From contig NZ_CP119147.1 of assembly GCF_029167645.1 (NCBI RefSeq), forward strand, positions 2,542,001-2,606,000: a DNA stretch of 64,000 nt. The letters are read 5' to 3'. Under the pieces are notes generated by a model. That model was not told where the DNA came from and searched no databases. It worked only from the letters and a program-made list of their open reading frames with translations. Within the stretch, counting starts at the first letter, position 1. Each line of letters begins with the position of its first letter. Positions 45,582 to 63,135 of the stretch are shown in pieces. The stretch is from Streptomyces sp. AM 2-1-1. GTDB taxonomy: Bacteria; Actinomycetota; Actinomycetes; Streptomycetales; Streptomycetaceae. The position numbers were made by a program, and so were the translations under genes.

Positions 45582-45603
45582 AGAACTGACAGTAACCTGA
45601 CCC

Positions 45604-45611
45604 ACGCGCGT
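45604..45611 (-). promoter_or_regulatory. Core ACGCGCGT at the DeoR-gene promoter
   Basis: The 8-bp core of the CTACGCGCGTAG palindrome occurs 9 bp upstream of the TACTGT -10 of the DeoR gene. The outer CTA/TAG bases are missing, so it is a weaker site; it could serve autoregulation. An 8-mer alone can occur by chance. Confidence 0.4.
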
Positions 45612-45843
45612 TTTCAGCGCATTGGGCCGGATTGCAGAAGTTGGCCACGAAGTGGGTCGCCAAGTGATATACGCGAAACCGATGTTGTCAGAGCTGTCCG
45701 CGGAGTCGCCGTCAGTTGCCGCCGGATCGACCGCCAGATGCGCACACCTGGTCGAGGAGCGGTCAGATGCGATCCGTTCGCTCCCCAACAGGCCCCTGCG
45801 CAACGGCGGTTGCCGAGGCGCGGGGGACGGTCGCGCGGGGTGA

Positions 45844-48128: not shown

Positions 48129-48140
48129 CTACGCGCGTAG
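48129..48140. promoter_or_regulatory. Operator palindrome CTACGCGCGTAG at the purine nucleoside phosphorylase promoter
   Basis: A perfect 12-bp palindrome lies 12 bp upstream of the -10 box TACCCT (48153-48158), which itself is 6 bp from the GTG start. It therefore covers the -35 region. Identical sequences occur at deoC and adenosine deaminase. Confidence 0.8.
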
Positions 48141-48164
48141 GGATTCAGCGGTTACCCTCGTGCG

Positions 48165-48989
48165 GTGAACGCATCTGTTATTCCGGACAACATCCAGGAC
48201 GACCCGCACGCGGTGGCCGCCGATGCCGCCGCCAGGCTGCGCGAGCTGACCGGCGCCGAGACCCACGACGTGGTCCTCGTGATGGGGTCCGGGTGGGGGC
48301 CCGCGGGCGATGCGCTCGGGGTCCCGGACGCCGAGTTCCCGGTCACGCACCTGCCCGGATTCCCGCCCCCCGCGGTCGAGGGCCACGGCGGCACGGTCCG
48401 CTCGTACCTCATCGGCGGCAAGCGCGTGCTGGTCTTCCTCGGCCGCACCCACTTCTACGAGGGCCGGGGCGTCGCCGCCGTCGCCCACGGCGTCCGTACG
48501 GCCGTCGCAGCGGGATGCCGGACCGTCGTGCTGACCAACGGCTGCGGCGGACTGCGCGAGGGCATGCGCCCGGGACAGCCGGTACTGATCTCCGACCACA
48601 TCAACCTCACCGCCACCTCCCCGATCATCGGCGCCAACTTCGTCGACCTGACCGACCTCTACTCCCCCCGGCTGCGGACGCTCTGCCAGGAGATCGACCC
48701 CTCGCTGGAAGAGGGCGTGTACGTGCAGTTCCCCGGCCCGCACTACGAGACCCCGGCCGAGATCGGCATGGTCCGCGCGATGGGCGGCGACCTGGTGGGC
48801 ATGTCCACCGTGCTGGAGGCCATCGCGGCGCGCGAGGCGGGCGCGGAGGTGCTCGGCATCTCGCTGGTGACCAACCTCGCCGCCGGTCTCTCCGGCGAAC
48901 CGCTCAATCACGAAGAGGTCCTGCAGGCGGGCCGGGACTCGGCCGCGCGCATGGGCGACCTGCTGGCCCGGGTACTGAGACAGATCTGA
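48165..48989 (+). CDS. punA: Purine nucleoside phosphorylase (class I, trimeric)
   Basis: The 274 residues match PNP: phosphate site '[15 protein letters not shown]', '[13 protein letters not shown]', purine-binding '[43 protein letters not shown]' region and '[17 protein letters not shown]'. It splits (deoxy)inosine and (deoxy)guanosine into base and (deoxy)ribose-1-phosphate. The GTG at 48165 is likely leaderless. A phosphomutase gene follows, which would isomerise the sugar phosphate towards deoC. Confidence 0.95.
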
Positions 48990-49076
48990 CCGGCCGGGCG
49001 CCGGCGCGCACCCCGCGTGGCCGGCGCCGGCCCCCGTACCGGACGCATCCCCGTCATCCCCGAAGGGTGGACCCCC

Positions 49077-50738
49077 GTGCAGCACGACGACCTCCTCGAC
49101 CGGGCCAGGGCCTGGCAGGCCGAGGACCCGGACCCCGAGACGCGGGACGAACTGGGCCGGCTGATCGCCGCCGACGGCCCCGCAGCCCGCGCCGAGCTCG
49201 CCGCGCGCTTCGCGGGCACCCTCCAGTTCGGCACCGCCGGGCTGCGCGGGGAGCTGGGCGCCGGGCCGATGCGGATGAACCGGTCCGTCGTGATCCGGGC
49301 CGCCGCCGGACTCGCCGCGTACCTCAGGGCCCGGGCGGGCCGGGGAGACGCTCCCGGCCTCGTCGTCATCGGCTACGACGCCCGCTACCGCTCGGCCGAC
49401 TTCGCCCGGGACACCGCCGCGGTGATGACCGGGGCCGGGCTGCGCGCCGCCGTGCTGCCGCGCCCGCTGCCGACCCCCGTCCTCGCGTACGCCGTACGGC
49501 ACCTGGGGGCCGTCGCCGGCGTGGAGGTCACCGCGAGCCACAACCCGCCGCGCGACAACGGCTACAAGGTCTACCTGGGCGACGGCTCGCAGATCGTGCC
49601 CCCGGCGGACGCGGAGATCGCCGCGGCCATCGCGGCGGTCGGCCCGCTCGCCGGGGTGGACCGCCCCGAGGGCGGCTGGCAGGTCCTCGGCGACGAGGTC
49701 CTCGACGCCTACCTGGCCCGGACCGACGCCGTCCTCTCCGCCGGCTCCCCGCGCACCGCCCGGACCGTCTACACGGCGATGCACGGTGTCGGCACCTCCG
49801 TGCTGACCGCCGCCTTCGAGCGGGCCGGGTTCCCGGCGCCGGTGCTCGTCGCCGAACAGGCCGAGCCCGACCCGGCCTTCCCCACCGTCGCGTTCCCCAA
49901 CCCGGAGGAACCGGGCGCGATGGACCTCTCCTTCGCGACCGCGCGACGGGTGGAGCCCGACCTGGTCATCGCCAACGACCCGGACGCGGACCGCTGCGCC
50001 GTCGCCGTCCCGGACCCGGCGGCCGACGGCGGCTGGCGGATGCTGCGCGGCGACGAGGTCGGCGCCCTGCTCGCGGCGCACCTGGTGGACCGCGGCGCCG
50101 AGGGCGTCCTCGCCGCCTCGATCGTCTCCTCCTCGCTGCTCGGCCGGATCGCCGAACGGGCCGGTCTCGGGTACGAGGAGACGCTGACCGGCTTCAAGTG
50201 GATCGCCCGCGTGGACGGCCTGCGCTACGGCTACGAGGAGGCGCTCGGCTACTGCGTCGACCCCGACGGCGTACGGGACAAGGACGGCATCACCGCCGCG
50301 CTGGTCGTCGCCGAGCTCGCCTCGGTGCTCAAGGAGCGCGGCCGCACCCTGCTCGACCTGCTGGACGATCTGGCGCTCGCGCACGGCCTGCACGCGACCG
50401 ACCAGCTCTCGGTCCGGGTGGAGGACCTCTCGGTCATCGCCGACGCCATGGAGCGGCTGCGGGAGCGGCCGCCCGTCGCGCTGGCCGGACTGGCGGTGAC
50501 CTCGGCGGAGGACCTCTCGAAGGGTTCCGCGCCGCTGCCGCCCACGGACGGGCTGCGCTACCGGCTGGACGGGGCCCGGGTGATCGTCCGCCCGAGCGGG
50601 ACCGAGCCGAAGCTGAAGTGCTACCTGGAGGTCGTCGTGCCGGTCGCCTCGGCGGACGGGCTGCCCGCCGCGCGGGCCCGGGCGGCGGAGCTGCTGGCCG
50701 GGATCAGGCGGGACCTCTCCGCCGCGGCCGGCATCTGA
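49077..50738 (+). CDS. Phosphohexomutase-family enzyme, probably phosphopentomutase
   Basis: The 553 residues are an alpha-D-phosphohexomutase: catalytic Ser in 'VEVTASHNPPRDNGYKVY', metal loop 'NDPDADRCAVAV', sugar loop 'GYEEALGYCV' and C-terminal phosphate loop 'RPSGTEPKLKCYLEV'. Annotated homologues are called phosphomannomutase; the place directly after purine nucleoside phosphorylase and the PgcA/PgmB-type length suggest ribose/deoxyribose-1-phosphate as substrate. The GTG at 49077 has AAGGGTGG 7 bp upstream. Confidence 0.9.
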   Translation: MQHDDLLDRARAWQAEDPDPETRDELGRLIAADGPAARAELAARFAGTLQFGTAGLRGELGAGPMRMNRSVVIRAAAGLAAYLRARAGRGDAPGLVVIGYDARYRSADFARDTAAVMTGAGLRAAVLPRPLPTPVLAYAVRHLGAVAGVEVTASHNPPRDNGYKVYLGDGSQIVPPADAEIAAAIAAVGPLAGVDRPEGGWQVLGDEVLDAYLARTDAVLSAGSPRTARTVYTAMHGVGTSVLTAAFERAGFPAPVLVAEQAEPDPAFPTVAFPNPEEPGAMDLSFATARRVEPDLVIANDPDADRCAVAVPDPAADGGWRMLRGDEVGALLAAHLVDRGAEGVLAASIVSSSLLGRIAERAGLGYEETLTGFKWIARVDGLRYGYEEALGYCVDPDGVRDKDGITAALVVAELASVLKERGRTLLDLLDDLALAHGLHATDQLSVRVEDLSVIADAMERLRERPPVALAGLAVTSAEDLSKGSAPLPPTDGLRYRLDGARVIVRPSGTEPKLKCYLEVVVPVASADGLPAARARAAELLAGIRRDLSAAAGI

Positions 50739-50804
50739 CCCCCGGGCGTCCGGCCGGCGGCAGCAGACGCACCGCACACGGCAGCCGGCGCACGGCACAC
50801 GGAA

Positions 50805-50838
50805 GCGGGCCGGTCCTCCCGAGGGAGGGCCGGCCCGC
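50805..50838. terminator. Hairpin between the mutase and PH-domain gene
   Basis: GCGGGCCGGTCCTCCC (50805-50820) pairs with 50823-50838 with one G-T mismatch. It lies between two converging genes. Confidence 0.65.
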
Positions 50839-50873
50839 CCGTTCGTGCGGGACGCCCGTGCCGGGGGCCGTCG

Positions 50874-51518
50874 TCAGCCGGTGGCGAAGAGGACCGCCAG
50901 CGCGATCGCGCCCGCGACCGCGGGCGCGATGATCTCCCAGGCCCAGCGGACCGAGGCGGACACCTCGGGCCCCCCGGGCGCGGCGATGCCCTGCGAGGCG
51001 GCGGCGGCCCGCAGCTCGGCGTCGTCGTGGGCGAGCTGGCGAAGTTCCGACACCGCCTGGTCGGCCGCGGCGGGACGCACCTGGCCCTCGGCGAGCCCTC
51101 CCCCGCGCTGGGCGGCCGTCGACTGGCGCAGCGCCCGCTTCCGGTCGCGCAGCGAGACGGGCAGCGCCCACACCTGGTACTTCGTGCCACCGGTGGTGTA
51201 CAGCTCGGTCGAGTACGCGGCGCGGATGCCCTCCACCGCCGACCACGGCAGCGTGATCGTGCGGAACGGGTTGCGGACCAGGATGCGCCGGGTTCCGGCC
51301 AGCACGGCGGGCCGCAGCGTGAGGGCGATCACCAGGGGCGCCACCAGCGCCGTCGCCGACAGCGCCTGCCACGGCGCACGGCCCTCCCCGGTGAAGAGCG
51401 CGTCGCCGAGCAGCCAGGCGATCAGCAGGAGCAGCAGTACGCCGGCCACCATCGCGGCACCCGACCGGTAGGTGCGGTCGGCGTAGGTGGGCTCGTCGGG
51501 GGGCGTGGAGCTCGTCAT
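50874..51518 (-). CDS. Bacterial PH-domain membrane protein
   Basis: The 214 residues have two N-terminal membrane helices ('AAMVAGVLLLLLIAWLLGDALF', 'ALSATALVAPLVIALTL'), a cytoplasmic PH-like domain at about 75-130 ('AGTRRILVRNPFRTITLPWSAVEGIRAAYSTELYTTGGTKYQVWALPV' pattern) and one C-terminal helix. CACAAT lies 6 bp before the ATG (leaderless type). Function unknown. It interrupts the nucleoside gene series on the opposite strand, and its promoter faces deoC. Confidence 0.85.
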   Translation of the reverse strand: MTSSTPPDEPTYADRTYRSGAAMVAGVLLLLLIAWLLGDALFTGEGRAPWQALSATALVAPLVIALTLRPAVLAGTRRILVRNPFRTITLPWSAVEGIRAAYSTELYTTGGTKYQVWALPVSLRDRKRALRQSTAAQRGGGLAEGQVRPAAADQAVSELRQLAHDDAELRAAAASQGIAAPGGPEVSASVRWAWEIIAPAVAGAIALAVLFATG

Positions 51519-51636
51519 GGCCCGATTGTGCCTGACGCCGGGCCGGGCACGGGGCGGCCGGGTCCCGCCCGGGGGTCCGGCGCGCGCGGGGGCCCGCGCG
51601 GAGCACTTCGCGGGCCGCACCCCCCTGTACAGGTCG

Positions 51637-51648
51637 CTACGCGCGTAG
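51637..51648. promoter_or_regulatory. Operator palindrome CTACGCGCGTAG at the deoC promoter
   Basis: This perfect copy directly abuts the -10 box TATGCT (51650-51655), which is 6 bp from the GTG start of deoC. A bound protein would occlude the promoter. Confidence 0.8.
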
Positions 51649-51661
51649 ATATGCTCCCCTG

Positions 51662-52615
51662 GTGACCATGCCCACCTCTGCACCCGCATTCTCCGGCGCG
51701 ACCGCGTCCGACGGTGCGTTGCGCCGCTTCCTGCACGGGCTGCCCGGCGTCGACGCCGTCGGCCTCGAAGCGCGCGCCGCCTCGCTCGGCACCCGGTCGA
51801 TCAAGACGACGGCCAAGGCGTACGCGATCGATCTCGCCATCTCGATGATCGACCTGACGACGCTGGAAGGCGCGGACACCCCGGGCAAGGTCCGGGCGCT
51901 CTGCGCGAAGGCCCTGCACCCCGATCCGACCGACCGGACCACCCCGCGCACCGCCGCGGTCTGCGTCTACCCCGACATGGCGGCGACCGCGGTCGCCGCG
52001 CTGGCCGGCTCGGAGGTGAAGGTGGCGTCCGTGGCGACGGCCTTCCCGGCCGGCCGCGCGGCGCTCCCCGTCAAGCTCGCGGACGTCCGCGACGCGGTGG
52101 CGGCCGGGGCCGACGAGATCGACATGGTGATCGACCGGGGCGCGTTCCTGGCCGGCCACTACCTCAAGGTGTACGAGGAGATCACGGCTGTGAAGGCCGA
52201 GTGCGGCAGCGCCCGCCTCAAGGTCATCTTCGAGACCGGCGAGCTCTCCACGTACGACAACATCCGCCGCGCCTCCTGGCTCGGGATGCTGGCCGGCGCC
52301 GACTTCATCAAGACGTCGACGGGCAAGGTCGCGACCAGCGCCACGCCCGCCAACACCCTGCTGATGCTGGAGGCCGTCCGCGACTTCCGCCGTGAGACCG
52401 GCGTCCAGATCGGCGTGAAGCCCGCGGGCGGCATCCGCACGACCAAGGACGCGGTCAAGTTCCTGGTCCTGGTCAACGAGACCGCGGGCGAGGACTGGCT
52501 GGACAACCACTGGTTCCGGTTCGGCGCCTCCGGCCTGCTGAACGATCTGCTGATGCAGCGCCAGAAGCTCAGCACCGGCCGTTACTCCGGCCCCGATTAC
52601 GTGACGGTGGACTGA
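51662..52615 (+). CDS. deoC: Deoxyribose-phosphate aldolase
   Basis: The 317 residues are of the long DERA type. The Schiff-base Lys217 lies in 'AGADFIKTSTGK', the partner Lys253 in 'VKPAGGIRT', and Asp/Lys of 'EIDMVIDRGAFL' complete the site. It cleaves 2-deoxyribose-5-phosphate to acetaldehyde and glyceraldehyde-3-phosphate. Two aldehyde dehydrogenase genes follow at 5 bp and with an 8-bp overlap, so the acetaldehyde is probably oxidised by their products. Start at a GTG with no ribosome site and a TANNNT box 6 bp away, so probably leaderless. Confidence 0.96.
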   Translation: MTMPTSAPAFSGATASDGALRRFLHGLPGVDAVGLEARAASLGTRSIKTTAKAYAIDLAISMIDLTTLEGADTPGKVRALCAKALHPDPTDRTTPRTAAVCVYPDMAATAVAALAGSEVKVASVATAFPAGRAALPVKLADVRDAVAAGADEIDMVIDRGAFLAGHYLKVYEEITAVKAECGSARLKVIFETGELSTYDNIRRASWLGMLAGADFIKTSTGKVATSATPANTLLMLEAVRDFRRETGVQIGVKPAGGIRTTKDAVKFLVLVNETAGEDWLDNHWFRFGASGLLNDLLMQRQKLSTGRYSGPDYVTVD

Positions 52616-52620
52616 TCCCC

Positions 52621-54057
52621 ATGGCATCTGCATTCGAGTACGCCCCCGCCCCCGAGTCGCGGTCGGTCGTCGACATCGCGCCCTCGTACGGCCTGTTCAT
52701 CGACGGTGAGTTCACCGAGGCCGCCGACGGCAAGGTTTTCAAGACCGTCTCGCCGAGCAGCGAGGAGGTCCTCTCCGAGGTCGCCCGCGCGGGCGAGGCG
52801 GACGTGGACCGCGCGGTCCGTGCGGCCCGCAAGGCGTTCGAGAAGTGGTCGGCGCTGCCCGGCTCCGAACGCGCCAAGTACCTCTTCCGGATCGCCCGGA
52901 TCGTCCAGGAGCGCAGCCGTGAGCTGGCCGTGCTGGAGACCCTGGACAACGGCAAGCCGATCCGGGAGACCCGCGACACCGACCTCCCGCTGGTCGCGGC
53001 GCACTTCTTCTACTACGCGGGCTGGGCGGACAAGCTCGGCCACGCCGGTTTCGGCGCGGACCCGCGCCCGCTGGGCGTGGCCGGCCAGGTCATCCCGTGG
53101 AACTTCCCGCTGCTGATGCTGGCGTGGAAGATCGCCCCGGCGCTCGCCGCCGGTAACACGGTGGTCCTCAAGCCGGCCGAGACGACCCCTCTCTCGGCCC
53201 TGTTCTTCGCGGACATCTGCCGCCAGGCGGGTCTGCCGAAGGGCGTCGTCAACATCCTCACCGGGTACGGCGACGCGGGCGCGGCCCTCGTGGTGCACCC
53301 GGACGTGAACAAGGTCGCCTTCACCGGCTCCACCGCCGTGGGCAAGGCCATCGCCCGGCAGGTCGCGGGGACCGACAAGAAGGTCACCCTGGAGCTGGGC
53401 GGCAAGGGCGCCAACATCGTCTTCGACGACGCCCCCGTCGACCAGGCGGTGGAGGGGATCGTCACCGGCATCTTCTTCAACCAGGGCCAGGTCTGCTGCG
53501 CGGGCTCCCGCCTCCTGGTGCAGGAGTCGGTCCACGACGAGGTGCTGGACGCGCTGAAGCGGCGGCTGACCACGCTGCGCCTCGGCGACCCGCTGGACAA
53601 GAACACCGACATCGGCGCGATCAACTCCGCGGAGCAGCTCTCCCGGATCACCGCGCTGGTGGAGACGGGCGAGGCGGAGGGCGCGGAGCGCTGGAGCGCG
53701 CCGTGCGCACTGCCGTCCTCGGGTTACTGGTTCGCGCCGACGCTCTTCACCGGCGTCACCCAGGCCCACACGGTCGCCCGGGACGAGATCTTCGGCCCGG
53801 TGCTCTCGGTGCTGACCTTCCGCACCCCCGACGAGGCCGTCGCCAAGGCCAACAACACGCAGTACGGCCTGTCGGCGGGCATCTGGACGGAGAAGGGCTC
53901 CCGCATCCTCGCGGTGGCGAACAGGCTCCGGGCGGGCGTCGTCTGGGCCAACACGTTCAACAAGTTCGACCCCACCTCGCCGTTCGGCGGGTACAAGGAG
54001 TCGGGCTACGGCCGCGAGGGCGGCCGTCACGGCCTGGAGGCGTACCTCGATGTCTGA
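52621..54057 (+). CDS. Aldehyde dehydrogenase (full length)
   Basis: The 478 residues are a complete NAD(P)-dependent ALDH: 'IPWNFPLLMLAWKIAPALAAGNTVVLKP', catalytic Glu in 'LELGGKGANIVFDDA', nucleophile Cys in 'FNQGQVCCAGSR', and 'EIFGPVLSVLTF'. It starts 5 bp after deoC, so it most likely oxidises acetaldehyde from deoxyribose breakdown to acetate. The 3' end overlaps the next gene by 8 bp. Confidence 0.93.
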   Translation: MASAFEYAPAPESRSVVDIAPSYGLFIDGEFTEAADGKVFKTVSPSSEEVLSEVARAGEADVDRAVRAARKAFEKWSALPGSERAKYLFRIARIVQERSRELAVLETLDNGKPIRETRDTDLPLVAAHFFYYAGWADKLGHAGFGADPRPLGVAGQVIPWNFPLLMLAWKIAPALAAGNTVVLKPAETTPLSALFFADICRQAGLPKGVVNILTGYGDAGAALVVHPDVNKVAFTGSTAVGKAIARQVAGTDKKVTLELGGKGANIVFDDAPVDQAVEGIVTGIFFNQGQVCCAGSRLLVQESVHDEVLDALKRRLTTLRLGDPLDKNTDIGAINSAEQLSRITALVETGEAEGAERWSAPCALPSSGYWFAPTLFTGVTQAHTVARDEIFGPVLSVLTFRTPDEAVAKANNTQYGLSAGIWTEKGSRILAVANRLRAGVVWANTFNKFDPTSPFGGYKESGYGREGGRHGLEAYLDV

Positions 54058-54994
54058 GCAGGAATCGACCAACGGCTCGGCCGTGCGGCGCCTCGGCGTC
54101 TTCAAGACCTACAAGCTGTACGTCGGGGGCAAGTTCCCCCGCTCCGAGAGCGGCCGGGTGTACGAGGTGACCGACTCCAAGGGCAAGTGGCTCGCGAACG
54201 CCCCCCAGTCGTCCCGCAAGGACGCGCGGGACGCGGTCGTCGCGGCCCGCAAGGCTTTCGGCGGCTGGTCCGGCGCGACCGCCTACAACCGCGGCCAGAT
54301 CCTCTACCGCGTCGCCGAGATGCTGGAGGGGCGCCGGGACCAGTTCGTCCGCGAAGTGGCCGAGGCCGAAGGGCTGTCGAAGTCCAGGGCGGCGGCCGTG
54401 GTGGACGCGGCGGTGGACCGCTGGGTCTGGTACGCGGGGTGGACCGACAAGATCGGCCAGGTCGTGGGCGGGGCCAACCCGGTCGCGGGGCCGTACTTCA
54501 ACCTGTCGACGCCCGAGCCGACCGGTGTGGTCGCCGTCCTGGCGCCGCAGCGCTCGTCGTTCCTCGGGCTGGTCTCGGTGATCGCCCCGGTGATCGCGAC
54601 CGGGAACACGGCCGTGGTGGTCGCCTCCGCCGGAGCCCCGCTGCCGGCGCTCTCGCTGGGCGAGGTACTGGCCACCTCCGACCTGCCCGGCGGGGTGGTG
54701 AACCTGCTCTCCGGTGCCACCGCCGAGCTGGCGGCCCCGCTCGCGGCCCACCAGGACGTCAACGCCGTTGACCTCACCGGCGCGGACACGGCGCTGGCGA
54801 AGGAGCTGGAGATCGCGGCGGCCGACAACCTGAAGCGCGTACTCCGTCCACAGGCTGTGGACGGGGCGGCGGACCCGGCGGCCGAACCGGACTGGACCGC
54901 CGACCCGGGTACGCACCGGCTGACCGCGTTCCTGGAGACGAAGACGGTCTGGCACCCCACGGGGGCGCTGGGCGTCTCCGGCTCGTCGTACTGA
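54050..54994 (+). CDS. Half-length aldehyde dehydrogenase homologue without catalytic Cys
   Basis: The 314 residues align with the N-terminal half of an ALDH ('FKTYKLYVGGKFPRSESGRVYEV', 'AVVAARKAFGGWSGATAYNRGQILYRVAEML', 'GANPVAGPYFNLSTPEPTGVVAVLAPQRSSFLGL'). The fold then ends in 'AADNLKRVLRP...LTAFLETKTVWHP'. The cofactor fold is largely present, but the catalytic domain with the nucleophilic Cys and the GQ.C motif is absent. It is not a recent frameshift: the frame is clean and ends in its own motif. It overlaps the upstream ALDH by 8 bp, so the two are probably made together and may form a hetero-oligomer. Confidence 0.88.
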   Translation: MSEQESTNGSAVRRLGVFKTYKLYVGGKFPRSESGRVYEVTDSKGKWLANAPQSSRKDARDAVVAARKAFGGWSGATAYNRGQILYRVAEMLEGRRDQFVREVAEAEGLSKSRAAAVVDAAVDRWVWYAGWTDKIGQVVGGANPVAGPYFNLSTPEPTGVVAVLAPQRSSFLGLVSVIAPVIATGNTAVVVASAGAPLPALSLGEVLATSDLPGGVVNLLSGATAELAAPLAAHQDVNAVDLTGADTALAKELEIAAADNLKRVLRPQAVDGAADPAAEPDWTADPGTHRLTAFLETKTVWHPTGALGVSGSSY

Positions 54995-55023
54995 CGCGGC
55001 GGCGGGTCCGTCCGGGACGGGGT

Positions 55024-55060
55024 GACGGGGGCCGGCCCCACGAGGAGGCAGGCCCCCGTC
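55024..55060. terminator. Hairpin between the ALDH operon and the secreted protein gene
   Basis: GACGGGGGCC (55024-55033) pairs perfectly with GGCCCCCGTC (55051-55060), between converging genes. Confidence 0.65.
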
Positions 55061-55084
55061 CGCGTGTCCCGGGCGACTCCGCGG

Positions 55085-55501
55085 TCAGCGCGCCCCGGTG
55101 ATCAGGCCGGTGGCCGGCCCCACCAGGGGCAGGTCGCGGAGCGCGCCGCCGTCGGTCAGGTGATCGGTGACCAGGGCGGTGGAGACCGGCTTGAAGTCCG
55201 CGACCTGCGTGCCCACCGCGTTGTCCAGCGGGTCCGATCCGGTCTTCGCCAGCGGGTCCAGCTGGAGGGCGGTGATCGGGGCGATGCTGTTCGACAACGC
55301 GCCGGTCAGCGCGGGAGCCGCCGCGTCGGTCACCGCCGACAGGGCCGCCTCCGCGCTGTCGCCCGCCTCGGTCAGGGCCGGGGGCGTGGCAGCCTGCGCG
55401 GACGCGGCGCCCGCGCCGAGCGCGGCGCCCATCGCGGTGACGGTCAGCCCGGCGCGCAGCAGGACGCGCCGCGAGGGCCTGGTTCGTGCGTGACGTGCCA
55501 T
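55085..55501 (-). CDS. Small secreted protein (138 aa)
   Basis: The protein has an Arg-Arg signal peptide ('RPSRRVLLRAGLTVTAMGAAL' region), possibly Tat-dependent, ending in an Ala-rich cleavage region. The mature part is about 95 residues, rich in Ala/Leu/Asp ('ALTEAGDSAEAALSAVTDAAAPALTGAL'), with no Cys. It resembles in style the other small secreted protein at 61.5-61.8 kb. AGGTGGG lies about 5 bp before the ATG at 55501; a GTG three codons earlier is an alternative. Function unknown. Confidence 0.75.
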   Translation of the reverse strand: MARHARTRPSRRVLLRAGLTVTAMGAALGAGAASAQAATPPALTEAGDSAEAALSAVTDAAAPALTGALSNSIAPITALQLDPLAKTGSDPLDNAVGTQVADFKPVSTALVTDHLTDGGALRDLPLVGPATGLITGAR

Positions 55502-55628
55502 TTTTCCCACCTGATCGACTTCGTTTCGGTAGCCGTACGTGCGCGCAGAGTAGTGGAGATGTGATGCTCGATACCAACAGGACTCCCGAGGGGTCGCCTG
55601 CTCGGGTCATGCCTCACACTTTTGTTCT

Positions 55629-56270
55629 GTGAGTTCCCAACCGATCCCGACGCGCGTGGTCCTCCTCGCAGGACCCTCCGGCTCCGGGAAGTCCTTCCTC
55701 GCCGCCCGTACCGGTCTTCCGGTGCTGCGGCTGGACGACTTCTACAAGGAGGCCAACGATCCGACCCTGCCCCAGGTCACCGGCAGCACGGACATCGACT
55801 GGGACTCCGCGGAGTCCTGGGACATGGAGTCGGCCGTCGCCGCCGTCGCGGAACTCTGCCGGACCGGCAGCACCCGGGTGCCGGTCTACGACATCTCCCT
55901 GAGCGCGCGCACGGGCACCGAAGTGCTGCACATCGACCGTTCACCGCTCTTCGTGGCCGAAGGCATCTTCGCGGCGGACATCGTCGGGCGCTGTCAGGAG
56001 TTGGGCCTGCTCGCCGACGCGATCTGCCTGCGCGGGCGCCCTTCGACCACGTTCCGCCGGAGACTGGTGCGGGACCTGCGCGAGGGCCGCAAGTCGGTGG
56101 CGTTCCTGCTGCGGCGCGGCTGGCGGCTGATGCGCGCCGAGCGCCGGATCGTGGCCCGCCAGGCGGCGTTGGGCGCCCACCCGTGCGGCAAGGAAGAGGC
56201 GCTCGGCCGGCTGGCCGCGGCCGCGGCGGGCCGCTGCCGCCGCACCCCGGCGGGGAGCGGTACGGCGTAA
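55629..56270 (+). CDS. P-loop uridine/nucleoside kinase-like protein
   Basis: The 213 residues have Walker A 'LLAGPSGSGKSFLA' at about 12-22, 'VLRLDDFYKEAND' (Asp of the nucleoside site), 'VPVYDISLSARTG' and 'FVAEGIFAADIVG', all hallmarks of uridine kinases (udk/PRK family), with an unusual basic C-terminal half ('RRRLVRDLREGRKSVAFLLRRGWRLMRAERR'). It probably phosphorylates a nucleoside or related sugar. The GTG start has CACTTT 6 bp upstream (leaderless type). It lies between the nucleoside and afsQ blocks. Confidence 0.85.
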   Translation: MSSQPIPTRVVLLAGPSGSGKSFLAARTGLPVLRLDDFYKEANDPTLPQVTGSTDIDWDSAESWDMESAVAAVAELCRTGSTRVPVYDISLSARTGTEVLHIDRSPLFVAEGIFAADIVGRCQELGLLADAICLRGRPSTTFRRRLVRDLREGRKSVAFLLRRGWRLMRAERRIVARQAALGAHPCGKEEALGRLAAAAAGRCRRTPAGSGTA

Positions 56271-56317
56271 CGGGCGGCCCGCCGGCCGGGCGGGACGTGA
56301 CCGGCGGGAACGGCGGA

Positions 56318-56353
56318 CGGGGCCGTACGGGCCCCCCAGCCCGTACGGCCCCG
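56318..56353. terminator. Hairpin between the kinase gene and sigQ
   Basis: CGGGGCCGTACGGG pairs with CCCGTACGGCCCCG at 56340-56353, followed on the plus strand by CCGCTTTTCC. Confidence 0.75.
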
Positions 56354-56445
56354 CCGCTTTTCCGTGCCCCCGTGTCCCCCGAGGTCCCCCCGTCGCCCGC
56401 CGTTTCCCCCCGGAGCGGCGGGCTCCGTCGTTCCCCCGTCGCCCT

Positions 56446-57234
56446 TCAGGCCACCAGCTCGCCGAAGGACTCCTTCTCGTCACGTCCGAAGCTGAGGACC
56501 TCGTCCTCGCGCAGCCGGCGGAGCGACCGCCAGATGCTGGACTTCACCGTGCCGACACTGATGTCGAGGATGGCCGCGATCTCCGGGTCGGTGCGCCCCT
56601 CGTAGTAGCGCAGGACCAGCATGGTGCGCTGGAGTTCGGGCAGCCGGGCGAGTGCCTGCCAGAGCACCGCGCGCAGTTCCGTGCCGCGCATCGCGTCCGT
56701 GTCGCCGACCGTCTCCGGCAGCTCCTCGGTCGGGTACTCGTTGAGCTTGCGGCGGCGCCAGGCACTGATGTGCAGGTTGGTCATCGTGCGGCGCAGGTAG
56801 CCGCCGACGGCCGCCTTGTCACTGATCCTGTCCCACGCCCGGTAGGTCGAGAAGAGGGCGCTCTGCAGCAGGTCCTCGGCCTCGAACCGGTCGCCGGTCA
56901 GGTGGTAGGCGGTCGCGTACAGGGAGGCGCGGCGCTCCTGGACGTAGGCCGTGAACGCCGCTTCGGCGTCCTCGGCCCCCGCCAGGGGCGTCCGCTCCCC
57001 CGTGGTGCCCTCCCCGTACGCGCTTCCCCCGTGTCCCCGGTACGTTCCCCCGTACGTGCTGCCGCCGACGTCCCCCGCGTCGGCGACCGGTGTCAGCGAA
57101 GGGTGCTGACGCCCGGTGCCGCGAACGCACCCCCGCCCGTTCACCGCACCCGACTTCTCCGGGATCCTGCCGACATCGTGGAGACGCGTGACCACTGCGC
57201 TGGAGCCGGTGCGCTGCAGCTGCCGTGCGTTCAT
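56446..57234 (-). CDS. sigQ: RNA polymerase sigma factor SigQ (SigE family)
   Basis: The 262 residues have a long N-terminal extension (about 1-95, Gly/Thr-rich) and then ECF regions: region 2 'ASLYATAYHLTGDRFEAEDLLQSALFSTYRAWDRI' and region 4 'LARLPELQRTMLVLRYYEGRTDPEIAAILDISVGTVKSSIWRSLRRLRE'. In S. coelicolor sigQ lies beside afsQ1/Q2, is controlled by AfsQ1 and influences antibiotic production. The ATG at 57234 has GGGGGG upstream. It is divergent from afsQ1 with an AfsQ1 box between them. Confidence 0.93.
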   Translation of the reverse strand: MNARQLQRTGSSAVVTRLHDVGRIPEKSGAVNGRGCVRGTGRQHPSLTPVADAGDVGGSTYGGTYRGHGGSAYGEGTTGERTPLAGAEDAEAAFTAYVQERRASLYATAYHLTGDRFEAEDLLQSALFSTYRAWDRISDKAAVGGYLRRTMTNLHISAWRRRKLNEYPTEELPETVGDTDAMRGTELRAVLWQALARLPELQRTMLVLRYYEGRTDPEIAAILDISVGTVKSSIWRSLRRLREDEVLSFGRDEKESFGELVA

Positions 57235-57317
57235 CGTGCGCCCCCTGTCGGTGGAGTCCGTTCGAACCGTGTGCCAACGAGTCTGACCGGGCAGTTTCAT
57301 GGCACTGTCCGCCGACT

Positions 57318-57333
57318 GTCACAGAGCTGTCAC
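57318..57333. promoter_or_regulatory. AfsQ1 box between sigQ and afsQ1
   Basis: GTCAC-AGAGCT-GTCAC fits the published AfsQ1 consensus GTnAC-n6-GTnAC exactly. It lies about 85 bp upstream of the sigQ start and about 160 bp upstream of afsQ1, so it can serve either promoter. Confidence 0.85.
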
Positions 57334-57492
57334 AGGCCCCGTGAGGTCGTAACCGCCCCAACCGGGTTCGCGCGGCGGGGCCGTGCCGCGACCCCGGCCA
57401 CGCTCCGCGGGGCGGCGCGTGAGGGCGCGGGCGGACAGGAAGTGGTGCCCCACGGTCGAACTGCGGCGCCACCATGGGCCAGAATGGCGTCC

Positions 57493-58170
57493 GTGCCTTT
57501 CCTGTTGCTGATCGAGGACGACGACGCCATCCGCACGGCCCTCGAACTCTCGCTGTCACGCCAGGGCCACCGAGTGGTCACCGCGGCGACGGGAGAGGAC
57601 GGCCTCAACCTCCTCCGGGAGCAGCGACCCGACCTGGTGGTGCTGGACGTGATGCTGCCCGGCATCGACGGTTTCGAGGTCTGCCGGCGCATCCGCCGCA
57701 CCGACCAGCTGCCCATCATCCTGCTGACGGCGCGCAGCGACGACATCGACGTGGTGGTGGGCCTGGAGTCGGGCGCCGACGACTACGTGGTGAAGCCGGT
57801 GCAGGGCCGGGTGCTGGACGCGCGCATCCGGGCCGTACTGCGGCGCGGGGAGCGGGAGTCGACGGACTCGGCGACCTTCGGGAGCGTGGTCATCGACCGC
57901 TCCGCGATGACGGTGACCAAGGACGGGGCGGATCTCCAGCTGACCCCGACGGAGCTGCGGCTCCTGCTGGAGCTGAGCCGCCGGCCCGGACAGGCCCTGT
58001 CCCGGCAGCAGTTGCTGCGGCTGGTGTGGGAACACGACTACCTCGGCGATTCGCGGCTCGTGGACGCCTGCGTGCAGCGGCTGCGGGCGAAGGTGGAGGA
58101 CGTGCCGTCCTCGCCGACGCTGATCCGTACGGTGCGGGGCGTGGGGTACCGGCTGGACTCGCCTCAGTGA
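57493..58170 (+). CDS. afsQ1: Response regulator AfsQ1
   Basis: The 225 residues match S. coelicolor AfsQ1 almost identically. Receiver: 'FLLLIEDDDAIRTALELS', phospho-acceptor Asp52 in 'VVLDVMLPG', Lys in 'DDYVVKPV'; then an OmpR/PhoB winged helix. AfsQ1 controls antibiotic production and nitrogen/phosphate-linked genes. The GTG at 57493 is chosen: CAGAAT lies 7 bp upstream (leaderless type), and it gives the S. coelicolor length. An ATG three codons earlier exists. It overlaps afsQ2 by 4 bp. Confidence 0.97.
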   Translation: MPFLLLIEDDDAIRTALELSLSRQGHRVVTAATGEDGLNLLREQRPDLVVLDVMLPGIDGFEVCRRIRRTDQLPIILLTARSDDIDVVVGLESGADDYVVKPVQGRVLDARIRAVLRRGERESTDSATFGSVVIDRSAMTVTKDGADLQLTPTELRLLLELSRRPGQALSRQQLLRLVWEHDYLGDSRLVDACVQRLRAKVEDVPSSPTLIRTVRGVGYRLDSPQ

Positions 58171-59699
58171 GTGGACGTGCCGGGCGCACGGTCCGTGCGG
58201 GCCTGCGCTGGAGCAGTCTGCGGCTGCGGCTGGTGGTGGTGTTCGGGCTGGTGGCCCTGACGGCGGCGGTGTCGGCGTCGGCGATCGCGTACTGGCTCAA
58301 CCGCGAGGCGGTGCTGACCCGTACGCAGGACGCGGCGCTCGGGGACTTCCGGCGGCAGATGCAGAACCGGGCGGCGTCGCTGCCGTTGCGGCCCACCAAG
58401 GACGATCTCCAGTCCGCAGCCGCGCAGATGGCGGACAGCGGACCGGGGTACGCGGTGCTGCTGGAGGACGAGCGGGACGGCGGGAAGCCGATCGTCGGCT
58501 ACTCCGACCTGGACACCTTCACCAAGGTGGACGTGCCCGGCTCGCTGGAGCGGCAGGTCGCCGCGAAGCAGAAGCGGACCTCGGGCAACGCGGACGAGTA
58601 CCACCTCTTCTGGCAGCGCACGAGCATCGGCGGCACTCCGTACCTGGTGGCGGGGACCCGGATCATCGGCGGCGGGCCGACCGGCTACATGCTGAAGTCG
58701 CTCGACCAGGAGCGCGAGGACCTCAACTCCCTGGCCTGGTCGCTGGGGATCGCGACCACACTGGCGCTGGTCGGCTCGGCGCTGCTCGCGCAGGCCGCGG
58801 CGACGACCGTGCTCCGGCCGGTGCAGCGACTCGGTGACGCGGCGCGCAAGCTGGGCGAGGGGAAGCTGGACACCCGGCTGGTGGTCTCCGGAACGGACGA
58901 ACTCGCCGAACTCTCCCGTACGTTCAACCGGGCCGCCGGTTCGCTGGAGAAGAAGGTCGCGGACATGAGTGCGCGGGAGGAGTCCAGCCGCCGGTTCGTC
59001 GCGGACATGTCCCACGAACTGCGTACGCCGCTCACCGCGATCACCGCGGTGGCGGAGGTGCTGGAGGACGAGGCGGACAGTCTCGACCCGATGATCGCGC
59101 CCGCCGTGCACCTGGTGGTGAGCGAGACCCGGCGGCTCAACGACCTGGTGGAGAACCTCATGGAGGTCACCCGCTTCGACGCGGGGACGGCCCGGCTGGT
59201 CCTGGACACGGTGGACGTCGCCGACCAGGTCACCGCCTGCATCGACGCCCGGGCCTGGCTGGACGCGGTCGAACTGGACGCGGAGCGCGGCATGATGGTG
59301 CGGCTCGACCCGCGCCGGCTCGACGTGATCCTGGCGAATCTGATCGGCAACGCGCTCAAGCACGGCGGTTCACCCGTGCGGGTGCGCGTACGCACCGAGG
59401 GTGAGGAACTGGTCATCGAGGTACGCGACCACGGGCCGGGGATCCCCGGGGACGTGCTGCCGCACGTCTTCGACCGGTTCTACAAGGCGAGCGCGTCCCG
59501 TCCGCGCTCCGAGGGCAGCGGCCTCGGGCTGTCGATCGCCATGGAGAACGCGCTCATCCACGGCGGCACCATCTCCGCCGCCAACTCCCCGGACGGCGAC
59601 GGCGCGGTGTTCGTCCTGCGGCTGCCGCGCGACGCCGAGGACGGCGGCGCCGCGGACACCGACGCCGGCGACGCCGGCGCGGACGGCGGGGCGTCGTGA
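58167..59699 (+). CDS. afsQ2: Sensor histidine kinase AfsQ2
   Basis: The 510 residues have two membrane helices (about 18-42 and 188-210), a periplasmic sensor between, HAMP ('RPVQRLGDAARKLGEGKLDTRL'), phospho-acceptor His283 in 'DMSHELRTPL', and ATPase boxes 'NLIGNALKHGG', 'DHGPGIPGDVLPHVFDRF', 'GSGLGLSIA'. It is the partner of AfsQ1. The GTG start overlaps the afsQ1 stop (GTGA), giving translational coupling. The signal is unknown. Confidence 0.97.
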   Translation: MSGRAGRTVRAGLRWSSLRLRLVVVFGLVALTAAVSASAIAYWLNREAVLTRTQDAALGDFRRQMQNRAASLPLRPTKDDLQSAAAQMADSGPGYAVLLEDERDGGKPIVGYSDLDTFTKVDVPGSLERQVAAKQKRTSGNADEYHLFWQRTSIGGTPYLVAGTRIIGGGPTGYMLKSLDQEREDLNSLAWSLGIATTLALVGSALLAQAAATTVLRPVQRLGDAARKLGEGKLDTRLVVSGTDELAELSRTFNRAAGSLEKKVADMSAREESSRRFVADMSHELRTPLTAITAVAEVLEDEADSLDPMIAPAVHLVVSETRRLNDLVENLMEVTRFDAGTARLVLDTVDVADQVTACIDARAWLDAVELDAERGMMVRLDPRRLDVILANLIGNALKHGGSPVRVRVRTEGEELVIEVRDHGPGIPGDVLPHVFDRFYKASASRPRSEGSGLGLSIAMENALIHGGTISAANSPDGDGAVFVLRLPRDAEDGGAADTDAGDAGADGGAS

Positions 59700-60304
59700 G
59701 ACCGGCGGGAGTGCGCCGTCCGCTCACCGGGCTGGCCCTGGCCGCGGCCGCCGCCGCCCTGGTGACGGGGTGCGGCATCCGGTCCACCACGGTGCCGGTC
59801 GACGCGGGGGCGGCGCCCTCCCGGGTGCCCTGCCGCACGGCGGGTCAGGGTTCCGGCTCGCAGTCGGCCGAGGAGCTGGTGCGGGTCTATCTGGTCTGCG
59901 CGTCGGAGCTGGTGGCGGTCGACCGTACGCTCCCGGACGCCGAGCGGAACCTCGGGCGGCTGGGGCTGGCGCGGGCGCTGCTGGCGCAGATCCGGCAGTC
60001 GCCGCTCGCCGTCGAGCGGCGCGCCGGCTTCACCACGGGCGTTCCCTCGGACCTGACCGTCGGGGAGGCGGCCTCGGACGATCCGGCGGGCGTCCTGCGG
60101 CTGAGCGCCCAGCCGGAGGACCTGTCCGCCGAGGCTCTGGCCCAGGTGGTGTGCACCTTCGCCGAGGAGAGCGCCCTCGTCACCGACGGCTCGGTCTGGC
60201 TCGGCGGTCCGAGCGACTACGCCCCGCGCGGGTACCTCTGCACGACGGAGACGAAGGCGCGGCCGCAGAACGTCCCGACGCGGAGCACGCCGCCGGCCGG
60301 CTGA
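59696..60304 (+). CDS. afsQ3: AfsQ3-type lipoprotein coupled to afsQ2
   Basis: The 202 residues have a lipoprotein signal ending 'LVTGCG' and a mature domain with several Cys ('VPCRTAG', 'VYLVCASELV', 'QVVCTFAEESA', 'YLCTTE'). The GTG start overlaps the afsQ2 stop by 4 bp, so all three afsQ proteins are coupled. Remembered S. coelicolor SCO4905 has the same position. It is probably an extracytoplasmic partner of the AfsQ2 sensor; no biochemical function is known to me. Confidence 0.88.
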   Translation: MRPAGVRRPLTGLALAAAAAALVTGCGIRSTTVPVDAGAAPSRVPCRTAGQGSGSQSAEELVRVYLVCASELVAVDRTLPDAERNLGRLGLARALLAQIRQSPLAVERRAGFTTGVPSDLTVGEAASDDPAGVLRLSAQPEDLSAEALAQVVCTFAEESALVTDGSVWLGGPSDYAPRGYLCTTETKARPQNVPTRSTPPAG

Positions 60305-60551
60305 GCAGGCGGTGGGCGGCTGAGCAGGCGGTGGACGGCGGCGCCCGGTGCGGTGGGGGCGCCGGTGCGGTGGGGGCCGGTCTGCGGTGCGTGTCGCTGC
60401 GGCTCCCGGCACGATCGCTCCGACGGGGCGGACGAGAGTGCAGGGGGCGGCGTGGCGGGTGGGGCGCCGCGGGGGCGCGCGTGCCGTGCTCTGCGCCACT
60501 TCGCGCCGTCCGCCCGGAACCGTTCGCTCGGGGACCGGCGTCTAGGGGGGC

Positions 60552-61103
60552 GTGCGACAAGGTCCCGGCGGTCAGGCCGTCACCCGGTTCCGCGTGGTGG
60601 GGTTCACTCTTCTCCTCGCGCATCTCGTGGTCGTCGGGTGGCTGACCCTGCGCCCCCTGGACGTCCCCTGGATGACCGCCGCGAATTTCACGCCCCTCGA
60701 CGGCATCCGGGCGGACCTCGCGCTCGGCCCCGGGGCGGCGGTGCGCCGGATAGGCGCGGGGCTGCTGCTGCTGGCGCCGCTCGGGTTCCTGCTGCCGATG
60801 GCGGACGCCCGGCTCACCGTCTCCCCCTGGGCGTCCCTGGTCCGTACGACCGCCGCCGGGGCGCTGATCTCCCTCGCCATCGAGCTGGGGCAGACCGGGG
60901 TGCCCGGGCAGGTGGTGGACATCGACTCGCTGCTGCTGAACACGGTGGGGGTACTCCTGGCCCATCTGCTGGTGGTGCCGTGCGTACGGGCCCGGCTGCG
61001 GCGCCGGCGCCGGCTCACCGCCCCCGCGCCGTCGGGCGCGGAGCCGGACGGCACCCCTCAGGGCTCCACCCCGACGATTACCAGGGTTGGGGTCGCACCG
61101 TAG
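60552..61103 (+). CDS. VanZ-like membrane protein
   Basis: The 183 residues show four hydrophobic segments and the VanZ pattern 'GWLTLRPLDVPW', 'NFTPLDGIRADL', 'LLLLAPLGFLLPM', 'ELGQTGVPGQVVDIDSLLLNTVGVLLAH'. VanZ domains are linked to glycopeptide tolerance in enterococci, but most relatives have unknown roles. The GTG at 60552 is next to a G-run ribosome site. It lies 247 bp after afsQ3, separated by GC-rich direct repeats. Confidence 0.87.
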   Translation: MRQGPGGQAVTRFRVVGFTLLLAHLVVVGWLTLRPLDVPWMTAANFTPLDGIRADLALGPGAAVRRIGAGLLLLAPLGFLLPMADARLTVSPWASLVRTTAAGALISLAIELGQTGVPGQVVDIDSLLLNTVGVLLAHLLVVPCVRARLRRRRRLTAPAPSGAEPDGTPQGSTPTITRVGVAP

Positions 61104-61193
61104 AGGGAGGCACCGGCCACCCCGGCGGAGCGACCATGGATACATCGGGAGCGCCGCAGCGGCTGCTCCCCCGGTCCCCTCAAGGAGCCCACC

Positions 61194-61409
61194 ATGGCCG
61201 CACCGGTTCGCCCTCGTGACGGACGCATGATCGCCGGAGTGTGCGCGGCGCTGGCACAGCGCTTCGGTACCTCCGCGACGACCATGCGCGTCATCTTCCT
61301 GGTCTCGTGCTTGCTTCCCGGTCCGCAGTTCCTCGTCTACCTGGCGCTGTGGGTCCTGCTGCCCGGGGAGAAGTCCTCGTCGGGCACCACCTCCGCGACG
61401 GCCTGGTGA
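61194..61409 (+). CDS. PspC-domain membrane protein
   Basis: The 71 residues are a PspC domain: 'RPRDGRMIAGVCAALAQRFGTSATTMRVIFLVSCLLPGPQFLVYLALWVLLPGE' pattern with one long hydrophobic segment. PspC proteins take part in phage-shock-type membrane stress sensing. AAGGAG precedes the ATG by 6 bp. A perfect 24-bp hairpin terminator follows. Confidence 0.92.
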   Translation: MAAPVRPRDGRMIAGVCAALAQRFGTSATTMRVIFLVSCLLPGPQFLVYLALWVLLPGEKSSSGTTSATAW

Positions 61410-61445
61410 TCCGGGCACGACGGGGGCACGGCAGCAGCGCGGAGA

Positions 61446-61498
61446 CGTACGTCAGTGGGGCACCCGGCCGGTCAGGCCGGGTGCCCCACTGACGTACG
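61446..61498. terminator. Perfect 24-bp-stem bidirectional terminator
   Basis: Arms 61446-61469 and 61475-61498 are exactly complementary, with the 5-base loop GGTCA. It lies between the PspC gene and the converging small secreted protein gene. Confidence 0.9.
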
Positions 61499-61520
61499 GG
61501 ACCGGGTGGAGGTTTCCGGG

Positions 61521-61820
61521 TCAGCCGCCGAGCGGGATGCCGTTCAGGTCGAGGCCCTTGGTCGGCAGTCCGCCGAGGAGCTGGGTGACGGGCGCGGCGG
61601 CGTCGGTGGCCTTGCCGCCGAGGAGGCTGCCGGTGGTCTCCTTGACCGGGAGGGTCTGGGCGGCGTGGCCCAGGTTCGACAGACCGTCGGTGGAGACGGG
61701 CAGGGCGCTGCCCGCGTCGAGCGGGAGCGCGGAGGCGGCCGAGGCGCTGCCGGCGGCGGCAGCGGCGAAGGCGGCACCGAGAGCGGCGACACCGAGGATG
61801 CGGGCGGAGGAGAGCTTCAT
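61521..61820 (-). CDS. Small secreted protein (99 aa)
   Basis: A Sec signal peptide ('MKLSSARILGVAALGAAFAA' then an Ala-rich region) is followed by about 70 residues rich in Leu, Gly, Thr and Asp with no Cys ('LPLDAGSALPVSTDGLSNLGHAAQTLPVKE'). Repeated 'LLGG' and 'GLDLNGIPLGG' are visible. AAGGAAA lies 6-8 bp before the ATG. Its style resembles the secreted protein at 55.1 kb. Such small exported Streptomyces proteins have no assigned role. Confidence 0.8.
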   Translation of the reverse strand: MKLSSARILGVAALGAAFAAAAAGSASAASALPLDAGSALPVSTDGLSNLGHAAQTLPVKETTGSLLGGKATDAAAPVTQLLGGLPTKGLDLNGIPLGG

Positions 61821-61952
61821 GGCTTTTTCCTTGGAGAAAGGGAATGCGGGCGGCTCTGCAAAGTAGCCACCGGGTTCCCCGCTCCGCAAATGGCACGACA
61901 CGCGGAAAAGGGCCGGGGAATGTGTTCCCCGGCCCTCGCCGATCCTTCCCGT

Positions 61953-63107
61953 TCAGTCCTGTTCGAGCGCGGAGACGCTGGTCGCGGCGGTCTGACTGAA
62001 CAGCCACGCGGACTTCAGTTCGGCGTATCCCGGCTTCACCACGTCGTTGATCATCGCGAGACGTTCATCGAAAGGAATGAATGCTGATTTCATCGCATTG
62101 ACGGTGAACCACTGCATGTCGTCGAGCGTGTATCCGAAAGTCTCGGTCAGCCGCTCGAATTCCTGGCTCATGCTCGTCCCGCTCATCAGGCGGTTGTCGG
62201 TGTTGACCGTGGCGCGGAAGTGCAAGGTGCGCAGCAGCCCGATCGGGTGCTGCGCGTAGGAGGCGGCAGCGCCGGTCTGGAGGTTCGAGGTGGGGCAGAG
62301 CTCCAGCGGGATGCGCTTGTCGCGCACGTAGGAGGCGAGGCGGCCGAGCTTGACCGTGCCGTCCTCGGCGATCTCGATGTCGTCGATGATCCGGACCCCG
62401 TGGCCGAGCCGGTCGGCGCCGCACCACTGGAGGGCCTGCCAGATCGAGGGCAGCCCGAACGCCTCGCCGGCGTGGATGGTGAAGTGGTTGTTCTCCCGCT
62501 TGAGGTACTCGAAGGCGTCCAGGTGGCGGGTGGGGGGGAATCCGGCCTCGGCGCCCGCGATGTCGAAGCCCACGACCCCGGTGTCCCGGTAGCGGTTGGC
62601 GAGTTCGGCGATCTCCAGCGAGCGTGCGGCGTGCCGCATGGCGGTGAGCAGCGCGCCGACCCGGATGCGACGCCCGGCCTCGCGGGCCAGCCGCTCCCCC
62701 GCGCGAAAGCCCTCGTTGACCGCCTCCACGACCTCTTCGAGGGTGAGCCCGCCGGTCAGGTGCTGCTCGGGGGCGTACCGCACCTCGGCGTAGACGACGC
62801 CGTCCTCGGCGAGGTCCTGGGCGCACTCGGAGGCGACGCGGACGAGCGCCTCGCGGGTCTGCATGACGGCGCAGGTGTGGGCGAACGTCTCCAGGTAGCG
62901 CTCGAGCGAACCGGAGTCGGCCGCCTCGCGGAACCAGGTCCCCAGCTTGTCGGGGTCGCTCTCCGGCAGGTCCTCGTACCCCTGGTCACGGGCGAGTTCG
63001 ACGATGGTGCCCGGGCGCAGCCCGCCGTCGAGGTGGTCGTGGAGGAGCACCTTCGGGGCGCGGCGGATCTGGTCGGCGTCGGGGGCGTGGCGCAACTGGC
63101 TCGTCAT
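61953..63107 (-). CDS. add: Adenosine deaminase
   Basis: The 384 residues are a metallo-dependent adenosine deaminase: zinc His pair in '[12 protein letters not shown]', '[13 protein letters not shown]' (catalytic Glu), '[11 protein letters not shown]' and '[16 protein letters not shown]'. It converts (deoxy)adenosine to (deoxy)inosine, feeding the phosphorylase encoded at 48 kb. TAGAGT lies 6 bp before the ATG (leaderless type), with the CTACGCGCGTAG operator 4 bp further upstream. Confidence 0.95.
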
Positions 63108-63123
63108 CCGGGCACTCTAACGC

Positions 63124-63135
63124 CTACGCGCGTAG
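63124..63135. promoter_or_regulatory. Operator palindrome CTACGCGCGTAG at the add promoter
   Basis: The third perfect copy lies in the -10/-35 spacer of add, whose minus-strand -10 is TAGAGT (63114-63119). The divergent hydrolase gene starts 75 bp away and might also respond. Confidence 0.8.

Follow-up and report, generated by a model that had tools for sequence, protein, structure and literature searches.

Why should three separate promoters of nucleoside catabolism carry the same 12-bp palindrome, and what does this palindrome control? The question comes from a stretch of 64,000 nucleotides of Streptomyces sp. AM 2-1-1 (NZ_CP119147.1, positions 2,542,001 to 2,606,000; the whole stretch is called the window below), in which the palindrome CTACGCGCGTAG stands at the genes of purine nucleoside phosphorylase (PNP), deoxyribose-phosphate aldolase (deoC) and adenosine deaminase (add). 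Judged from sequence comparison, CTACGCGCGTAG is probably (at roughly 0.87) the operator of one sequence-specific dimeric transcriptional repressor, which would be conserved across Streptomycetaceae and control a nucleic-acid scavenging regulon. A first-pass annotation had proposed a nucleoside-catabolism regulon here; that idea is strongly supported, but its scope was too narrow, since purS, purN, nuclease and 5'-nucleotidase genes also carry the site.

In the window, CTACGCGCGTAG is found only at 48129-48140, 51637-51648 and 63124-63135, each copy recorded without a strand. The first covers the -35 of the PNP promoter, 12 bp upstream of the -10 TACCCT (48153-48158), and the PNP gene (48165..48989, + strand; TIGR01698 above curated cut-off) has its GTG start at 48165, 6 bp after the -10, so that the transcript is probably leaderless. 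The second copy is located in the spacer of the deoC promoter, 1 base before the -10 TATGCT (51650-51655), and deoC (51662..52615, + strand; TIGR00126 above curated cut-off) starts with GTG at 51662. The third is located in the spacer of the add promoter, 4 bp before the -10 TAGAGT (63119-63114, - strand), while add (61953..63107, - strand; PRK09358 above curated cut-off) starts with ATG at 63107. All three promoters thus have a TANNNT -10 with six bases between it and the start codon. The first-pass annotation had placed three exact copies at these promoters, with a TANNNT element close before each start codon, and both the positions and, by the curated models, the gene identities hold.

Allowing up to two mismatches, the window contains 6 matches compared with 4.6 expected from shuffles, so within the window only exact, positioned copies are informative, and the evidential strength for an operator comes from genome-wide and comparative tests rather than from window counts. 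The whole genome (7,215,805 bases) contains no exact copy of CTACGCGCGTAG besides these three at PNP, deoC and add, and none at all of the reversed-pattern control (0); the earlier impression that no further full copy exists is correct for the window and for the genome. The symmetric pattern CTANNCGNNTAG has 9 genomic places (59 for the reversed control), and seven of these are at PNP, deoC, add, deoA, an ABC transporter ATPase gene, the LTD nuclease gene and purS. The remaining two are L195, with no adjacent gene start, and L023, 105 bp before an Lrp/AsnC gene. From the above, the operator is common to most promoters of the pathway and rare elsewhere in the genome.

The exact 12-mer is also present in all sampled Streptomyces genomes (101 of 101, this one included), with 2-6 copies in each and 0-3 for the reversed control. 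At the family level it was found in 80 of 81 Streptomycetaceae genomes, covering 16 of 17 genera; in the one genome without it (G250), the PNP site has 2 mismatches and the deoC site 1. A class-wide draw of 148 genomes gave 16 with CTACGCGCGTAG, 11 of the same genus and 5 others; at seven loci (L054-L057, L063, L214 and L215) of five out-of-family genomes, no reference protein matches at the exact site. Taking one exact-site locus per family genome, 59 of 65 loci are at genes of PNP (26), add (13), ABC ATPase (13), purN (3), a second adenosine deaminase called ada2 (2), deoC (1) and purS (1), where the reference proteins of ada2 and purN came from loci within the same 65-locus set. The others are one HAD gene (recognized by its own reference), one locus assigned to lpdA and four unassigned loci. 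Among 18 further places of the family, 15 are at regulon-type genes; of the other three, two are next to genes of He_PIG proteins and one belongs to neither group. When CTANNCGNNTAG was surveyed in 8 further genomes (52 places, 43 of them examined), 36 places were at regulon genes and one at a sugar ABC transporter; the 36 include G252:2258744, assigned by its distance to a truncated add match, and the nuclease genes of L253 and L260, which were read by eye.

In order to compare orthologous promoters independently of the site, promoters were gathered by protein match with the motif ignored, and 119 scrambled palindromes of the same composition served as control. For PNP, 20 cluster regions of the family gave 15 exact sites, 4 at one mismatch and 1 at two mismatches, while 18 deoC promoters of the family gave 9 exact sites and 9 at one mismatch, and all 14 add promoters of the family are exact (13 genomes; G013 twice). 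In the sites of these three genes, bases 1-7 and 10 are invariant and the flanks are variable. For the LTD nuclease, whose promoters were taken from named records, the best 80 of 428 relatives were compared: in Streptomycetaceae (Streptomyces and Kitasatospora), 6 of 73 promoters have an exact site, 64 a site with one mismatch, 2 with two mismatches and 1 with four, so that 72 of 73 are within 2 mismatches, and 0 of 7 from Pseudonocardiaceae (Amycolatopsis, Prauserella and Pseudonocardia) are, each being at 4-5 mismatches. The purS promoters of the family carry the site in 21 of 30 cases (16 at one and 5 at two mismatches), purN has exact sites in 7 genomes of two genera, and the 5'-nucleotidase, with 21 matches in 20 of 41 genomes, has it in 16 of 21 (13 at one and 3 at two mismatches). 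The purS loci are L010, L059 and L165-L194, and the purN loci are L090, L092, L093, L205, L206, L211 and L255. A class-wide search found add in 105 of 148 genomes; among the best 30 loci, whose promoters were compared, 11 of 11 Streptomyces loci are exact and 19 of 19 loci outside the family lack the site, with 3-5 mismatches at best.

In the same promoters, scrambled palindromes find a match with at most one mismatch in 0-0.4% of cases and with at most two in 1.1-2.4%, and promoters of neighbouring genes have the site within 2 mismatches in 2 of 18 (lpdA), 0 of 20 (pgm), 0 of 18 (aldh) and 0 of 49 (deoR) cases. The operator is therefore conserved at orthologous promoters beyond both controls. 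The first-pass annotation had named many unrelated copies, or a lack of conservation at orthologous promoters, as what would speak against its idea; the copies turn out to be rare, conserved and for the most part next to nucleoside genes. Chance occurrence of such palindromes in GC-rich DNA would agree with the two-mismatch count of the window, which is no higher than expected, and with the one-mismatch places of the genome, which are fewer than those of the reversed control, but this explanation is refuted by the genome-wide rarity of the exact site, the gene set, the conservation and the controls, and we consider its probability negligible.

The proposed regulon reaches beyond the window. 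Of the 17 genomic places within one mismatch of CTACGCGCGTAG, eight are at regulon genes (PNP, deoC, add, deoA, ABC ATPase, nuclease, 5'-nucleotidase and purS), one is inside an HNH nuclease gene and eight are elsewhere. For example, CTATGCGCGTAG is located between a cdd-like gene (by eye) and deoA, 7 kb past the window end, and 12 kb past that end, CTACGCGTGTAG precedes the gene encoding the ATPase of a bmp-type ABC transporter. Near-exact sites also precede the LTD nuclease gene, whose product has lamin-tail and exo/endonuclease-phosphatase domains and a signal peptide (by eye), a 5'-nucleotidase gene with a signal peptide (by eye), and purS, which is named from its own sequence and the Pfam match of an orthologue. 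In the HNH nuclease gene of this genome (L022), the site lies within the signal-peptide codons, and this gene is a doubtful member. Another genome (L260) has CTACGCGGGTAG upstream of a gene for a secreted HNH-like protein (HNH and signal peptide both recognized by eye), and a second near-site occurs at the nuclease gene in Kitasatospora loci, in L331 and in L253 (gene read as nuclease by eye).

Several results weigh against a single operator of one regulon. The 17 one-mismatch places of this genome are fewer than the 29 of the reversed pattern, so one mismatch alone is not significant, and the eight off-theme places among them are in coding sequence, near GH25/MarR, SGNH-lipase or Lrp genes, or at no clear gene. 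In the survey of 8 further genomes, 6 of the 43 examined places are off-theme. No site within 2 mismatches was found at 9 of the 30 purS promoters, and 5 of the 21 5'-nucleotidase promoters are beyond 2 mismatches. The spacing is not constant everywhere: the PNP site is 12 bp from the -10 in 11 of 20 promoters, the others varying or lacking a TANNNT by the rule used, and for purS this rule gave no clear, constant spacing. Among the places examined, no regulator gene recurs downstream of the site, and the repressor is therefore probably not autoregulated through it. Moreover, the genomes compared are related, and the counts above are non-independent events.

How would a protein bound at the palindrome act? 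The distance from site to -10 is 4 bp at add (14 of 14) and 1 bp at deoC (18 of 18), and at the nuclease gene the site overlaps the -10 by 3 bp in 72 of 72 promoters among the best 80 of 428 relatives. Many purS sequences have a GGTA...T element 14-17 bp downstream of the site (by eye). Depending on the gene, the conserved palindrome thus covers the -35, the spacer or the -10. Such placement fits an occluding repressor, because a dimer bound there would block RNA polymerase. At deoC, add and the nuclease gene, the fixed distance to the -10 could also mean that the palindrome is an activator site or belongs to a special promoter instead of being an operator, and a MerR-type activator in the spacer is formally possible. 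However, the position differs between genes (over the -35, in the spacer or overlapping the -10), some positions are unlike those of a classical activator, and the nuclease promoters mostly keep a TTG.C element upstream, at about -35, which makes an activator improbable. Under the repressor reading, the protein bound at the palindrome would obstruct RNA polymerase, and its release or loading may depend on a nucleoside, a purine or a sugar phosphate as signal.

A related arrangement was seen in five other Streptomyces genomes (L034, L041, L197, L198 and L213), where CTACGCGCGTAG lies across codons 3-7 (M-T-A-T-R-V) of the second, divergent adenosine deaminase, ada2, so that this operator also encodes the N-terminus of the protein.

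The local DeoR-family protein was the natural candidate for the binder in the first-pass annotation. Its gene is located at 44607..45581 on the - strand, with HTH_DeoR and DeoRC domains and a GTG start probably at 45581. As a repressor of these promoters, it would be released by deoxyribose-5-phosphate or a related sugar phosphate, and a DeoR-type sensor domain is indeed present. Each of the 81 family genomes (81 of 81) has a single match to the protein at E<=1e-60 (one orthologue, 82-100% identical), and in 19 of 20 cluster regions no more than about 11 kb separates deoR from PNP; the remaining region ends before deoR. An 8-bp core of the palindrome, ACGCGCGT, is located upstream of deoR at 45604..45611 (no strand recorded), as the first-pass annotation had described. 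The core is indeed present, but it is not a conserved operator of the deoR promoter: the 49 deoR promoters from 44 family genomes (five genomes twice) contain no site within 2 mismatches, this genome has 3 mismatches, and ACGCGCGT near the deoR start occurs in this genome alone among the family deoR promoters compared. With 0 of 49 promoters, ACGCGCGT is a chance match outside the operator set, and autoregulation of DeoR through it was rejected for lack of conservation at the family deoR promoters. Autoregulation, with an operator at the repressor's own promoter, is common and not obligatory.

Instead of the palindrome, the family deoR promoters share a different block, conserved in part (AACTTC...GG.GCAAA..GCTGAAA..AGACGGTC), immediately before the -10. 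This block (window 45590-45680; loci L094-L123 and L217-L235) is a candidate site for DeoR or another regulator, and this genome deviates from it. The comparison outside the family also speaks against DeoR. A class-wide search found DeoR orthologues in 11 genomes of two other families, whose identity is 58-70% and whose recognition helix (SEVTVRRD) is almost unchanged, but 10 of these 11 genomes are without exact CTACGCGCGTAG, and the single copy in the other (G204) lies within a predicted coding region. The add promoters of 7 of the 11 (G136, G153, G168, G183, G194, G215 and G225) have no site, with 4-5 mismatches at best. Besides, the site reaches secreted nucleases and purine synthesis, which is broader than a DeoR regulon. 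With no conserved site at its own promoter and with out-of-family orthologues lacking CTACGCGCGTAG, the role of the local DeoR is unsupported, and we regard it as doubtful.

The best reading is that the scope of the repressor is PurR-like rather than DeoR-like. A purine-sensing repressor with PurR-like logic, perhaps of the LacI family, might bind the site: purine sufficiency would load it, and starvation would free purine synthesis, nucleic-acid digestion and uptake together. This agrees with the sites at purS (within 2 mismatches in 21 of 30 family genomes) and at purN (exact in 7 genomes of two genera), and with an even palindrome with central CpG, a form that LacI-family operators have. 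On the other hand, no PurR-like candidate gene turned up, no search aimed at LacI proteins having been made, and the sites of deoC, PNP, add and the nuclease are better conserved than that of purS, which also fits induction by catabolites. The identification is tentative: a PurR-like protein is a reasonable possibility, DeoR has a smaller share of our expectation, and something else takes the rest.

Regulator genes appear near the site in single cases: in this genome an Lrp and a MarR gene, in the survey of 8 further genomes an XRE-like gene whose coding sequence contains the match (L271, by eye), and in G227 lsr2, across from purS (L059). In this genome, the Lrp/AsnC gene 105 bp downstream follows a CTACGCGGGTAG site (L023:3005-3016), and the MarR gene is near CCACGCGCGTAG. 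As an autoregulated binder, the Lrp/AsnC protein is unsupported, with no Lrp gene at the 43 of 52 CTANNCGNNTAG places examined in 8 further genomes.

In the proposed regulon, the secreted nuclease and the 5'-nucleotidase would yield nucleosides outside the cell, the bmp-type ABC transporter would import them, add, PNP, deoA and deoC would break them down, and purS, with purN in two genera, would tie the regulon to purine synthesis. Somewhat short of even odds, we suggest that a family-wide master repressor sets the response to purine or nucleotide hunger, its release starting extracellular DNA digestion, dephosphorylation, nucleoside uptake and breakdown, and purine synthesis in one stroke. 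Streptomycetes are known for their nucleases and for hyphae that die and are recycled. If the suggestion is true, the mycelium would use the master repressor to switch on the reuse of nucleic acid from neighbours or from its own hyphae as they die. The operator could serve as bait for its binding protein, and the promoters collected here are ready candidates for reporter assays; the membership predicted for the regulon can be compared with expression data that already exist. Because antibiotic production is influenced by the supply of purine nucleotides, for example through the signal guanosine tetraphosphate (ppGpp), the repressor could be a practical target.

Other genes near the sites may be noted. 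In the window, deoC is followed by an aldehyde dehydrogenase gene (52621-54057), and the interval between deoC and add also contains genes for a sigma factor and a histidine kinase (56446-59699), with no CTACGCGCGTAG match within 2 mismatches at their starts. In one genus, the exact site precedes two genes (L207:225-1952 and L208:2052-3806) for He_PIG-domain proteins whose N-termini resemble signal peptides; these genes are possible new regulon members. One Streptomyces genome (L270) has CTACCCGTGTAG upstream of the binding-protein gene of a sugar ABC transporter (ribose-like by eye), and a distant genus (L267:1968-2012) has two sites 33 bp apart, CTACGCGCGTAA and CTACGCGCGTAG, downstream of Opp-type ATPase genes.

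In the open-licence literature (subscription journals and preprints being outside the scope), we found no report of the operator or of a Streptomyces nucleoside regulon, and no regulator described as tying nuclease secretion to nucleoside use. In S. coelicolor, SCO4914, SCO4901 and SCO4920 are presumably the orthologues of the window's deoC, add and deoR, respectively. According to the respective articles, SCO4914 is a deoxyribose-phosphate aldolase (PMC3293853), and WblC binds and represses its promoter along with others (PMC7157823). SCO4901 is an adenosine deaminase; S. coelicolor contained far more of it, and of some putative nucleases, than the strain with which it was compared (PMC7244524). 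That nucleases and adenosine deaminase are abundant together is compatible with the regulon but is no test of it. SCO4920, a deoR-family gene, is listed in the regulator table of a study on carbon catabolite regulation (PMC4848846) and is described as the centre of network module 431, linked to development genes, in an article whose main text does not contain the words 'nucleoside' and 'purine' (PMC3224704). This module is possibly centred on the orthologous DeoR, and its link to development genes is unlike the present regulon.

Among the classical systems, the DeoR and CytR nucleoside regulons of E. coli have short palindromic operators at deo genes, cdd and transporters. The present system is similar in having a short palindromic operator at genes of nucleoside catabolism, but the operator is different, and here nuclease, 5'-nucleotidase and purine synthesis genes share one candidate operator. 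The PurR regulons (LacI-type in E. coli, dependent on phosphoribosyl pyrophosphate in Bacillus) place purine synthesis and the uptake of nucleosides or bases under one operator. To our knowledge, CTACGCGCGTAG is unlike the operators of either PurR type. Like the PurR regulons, the regulon proposed here would combine purine synthesis with nucleoside or base uptake under one operator, whereas it differs from them in including nucleoside catabolism and secreted nucleases.

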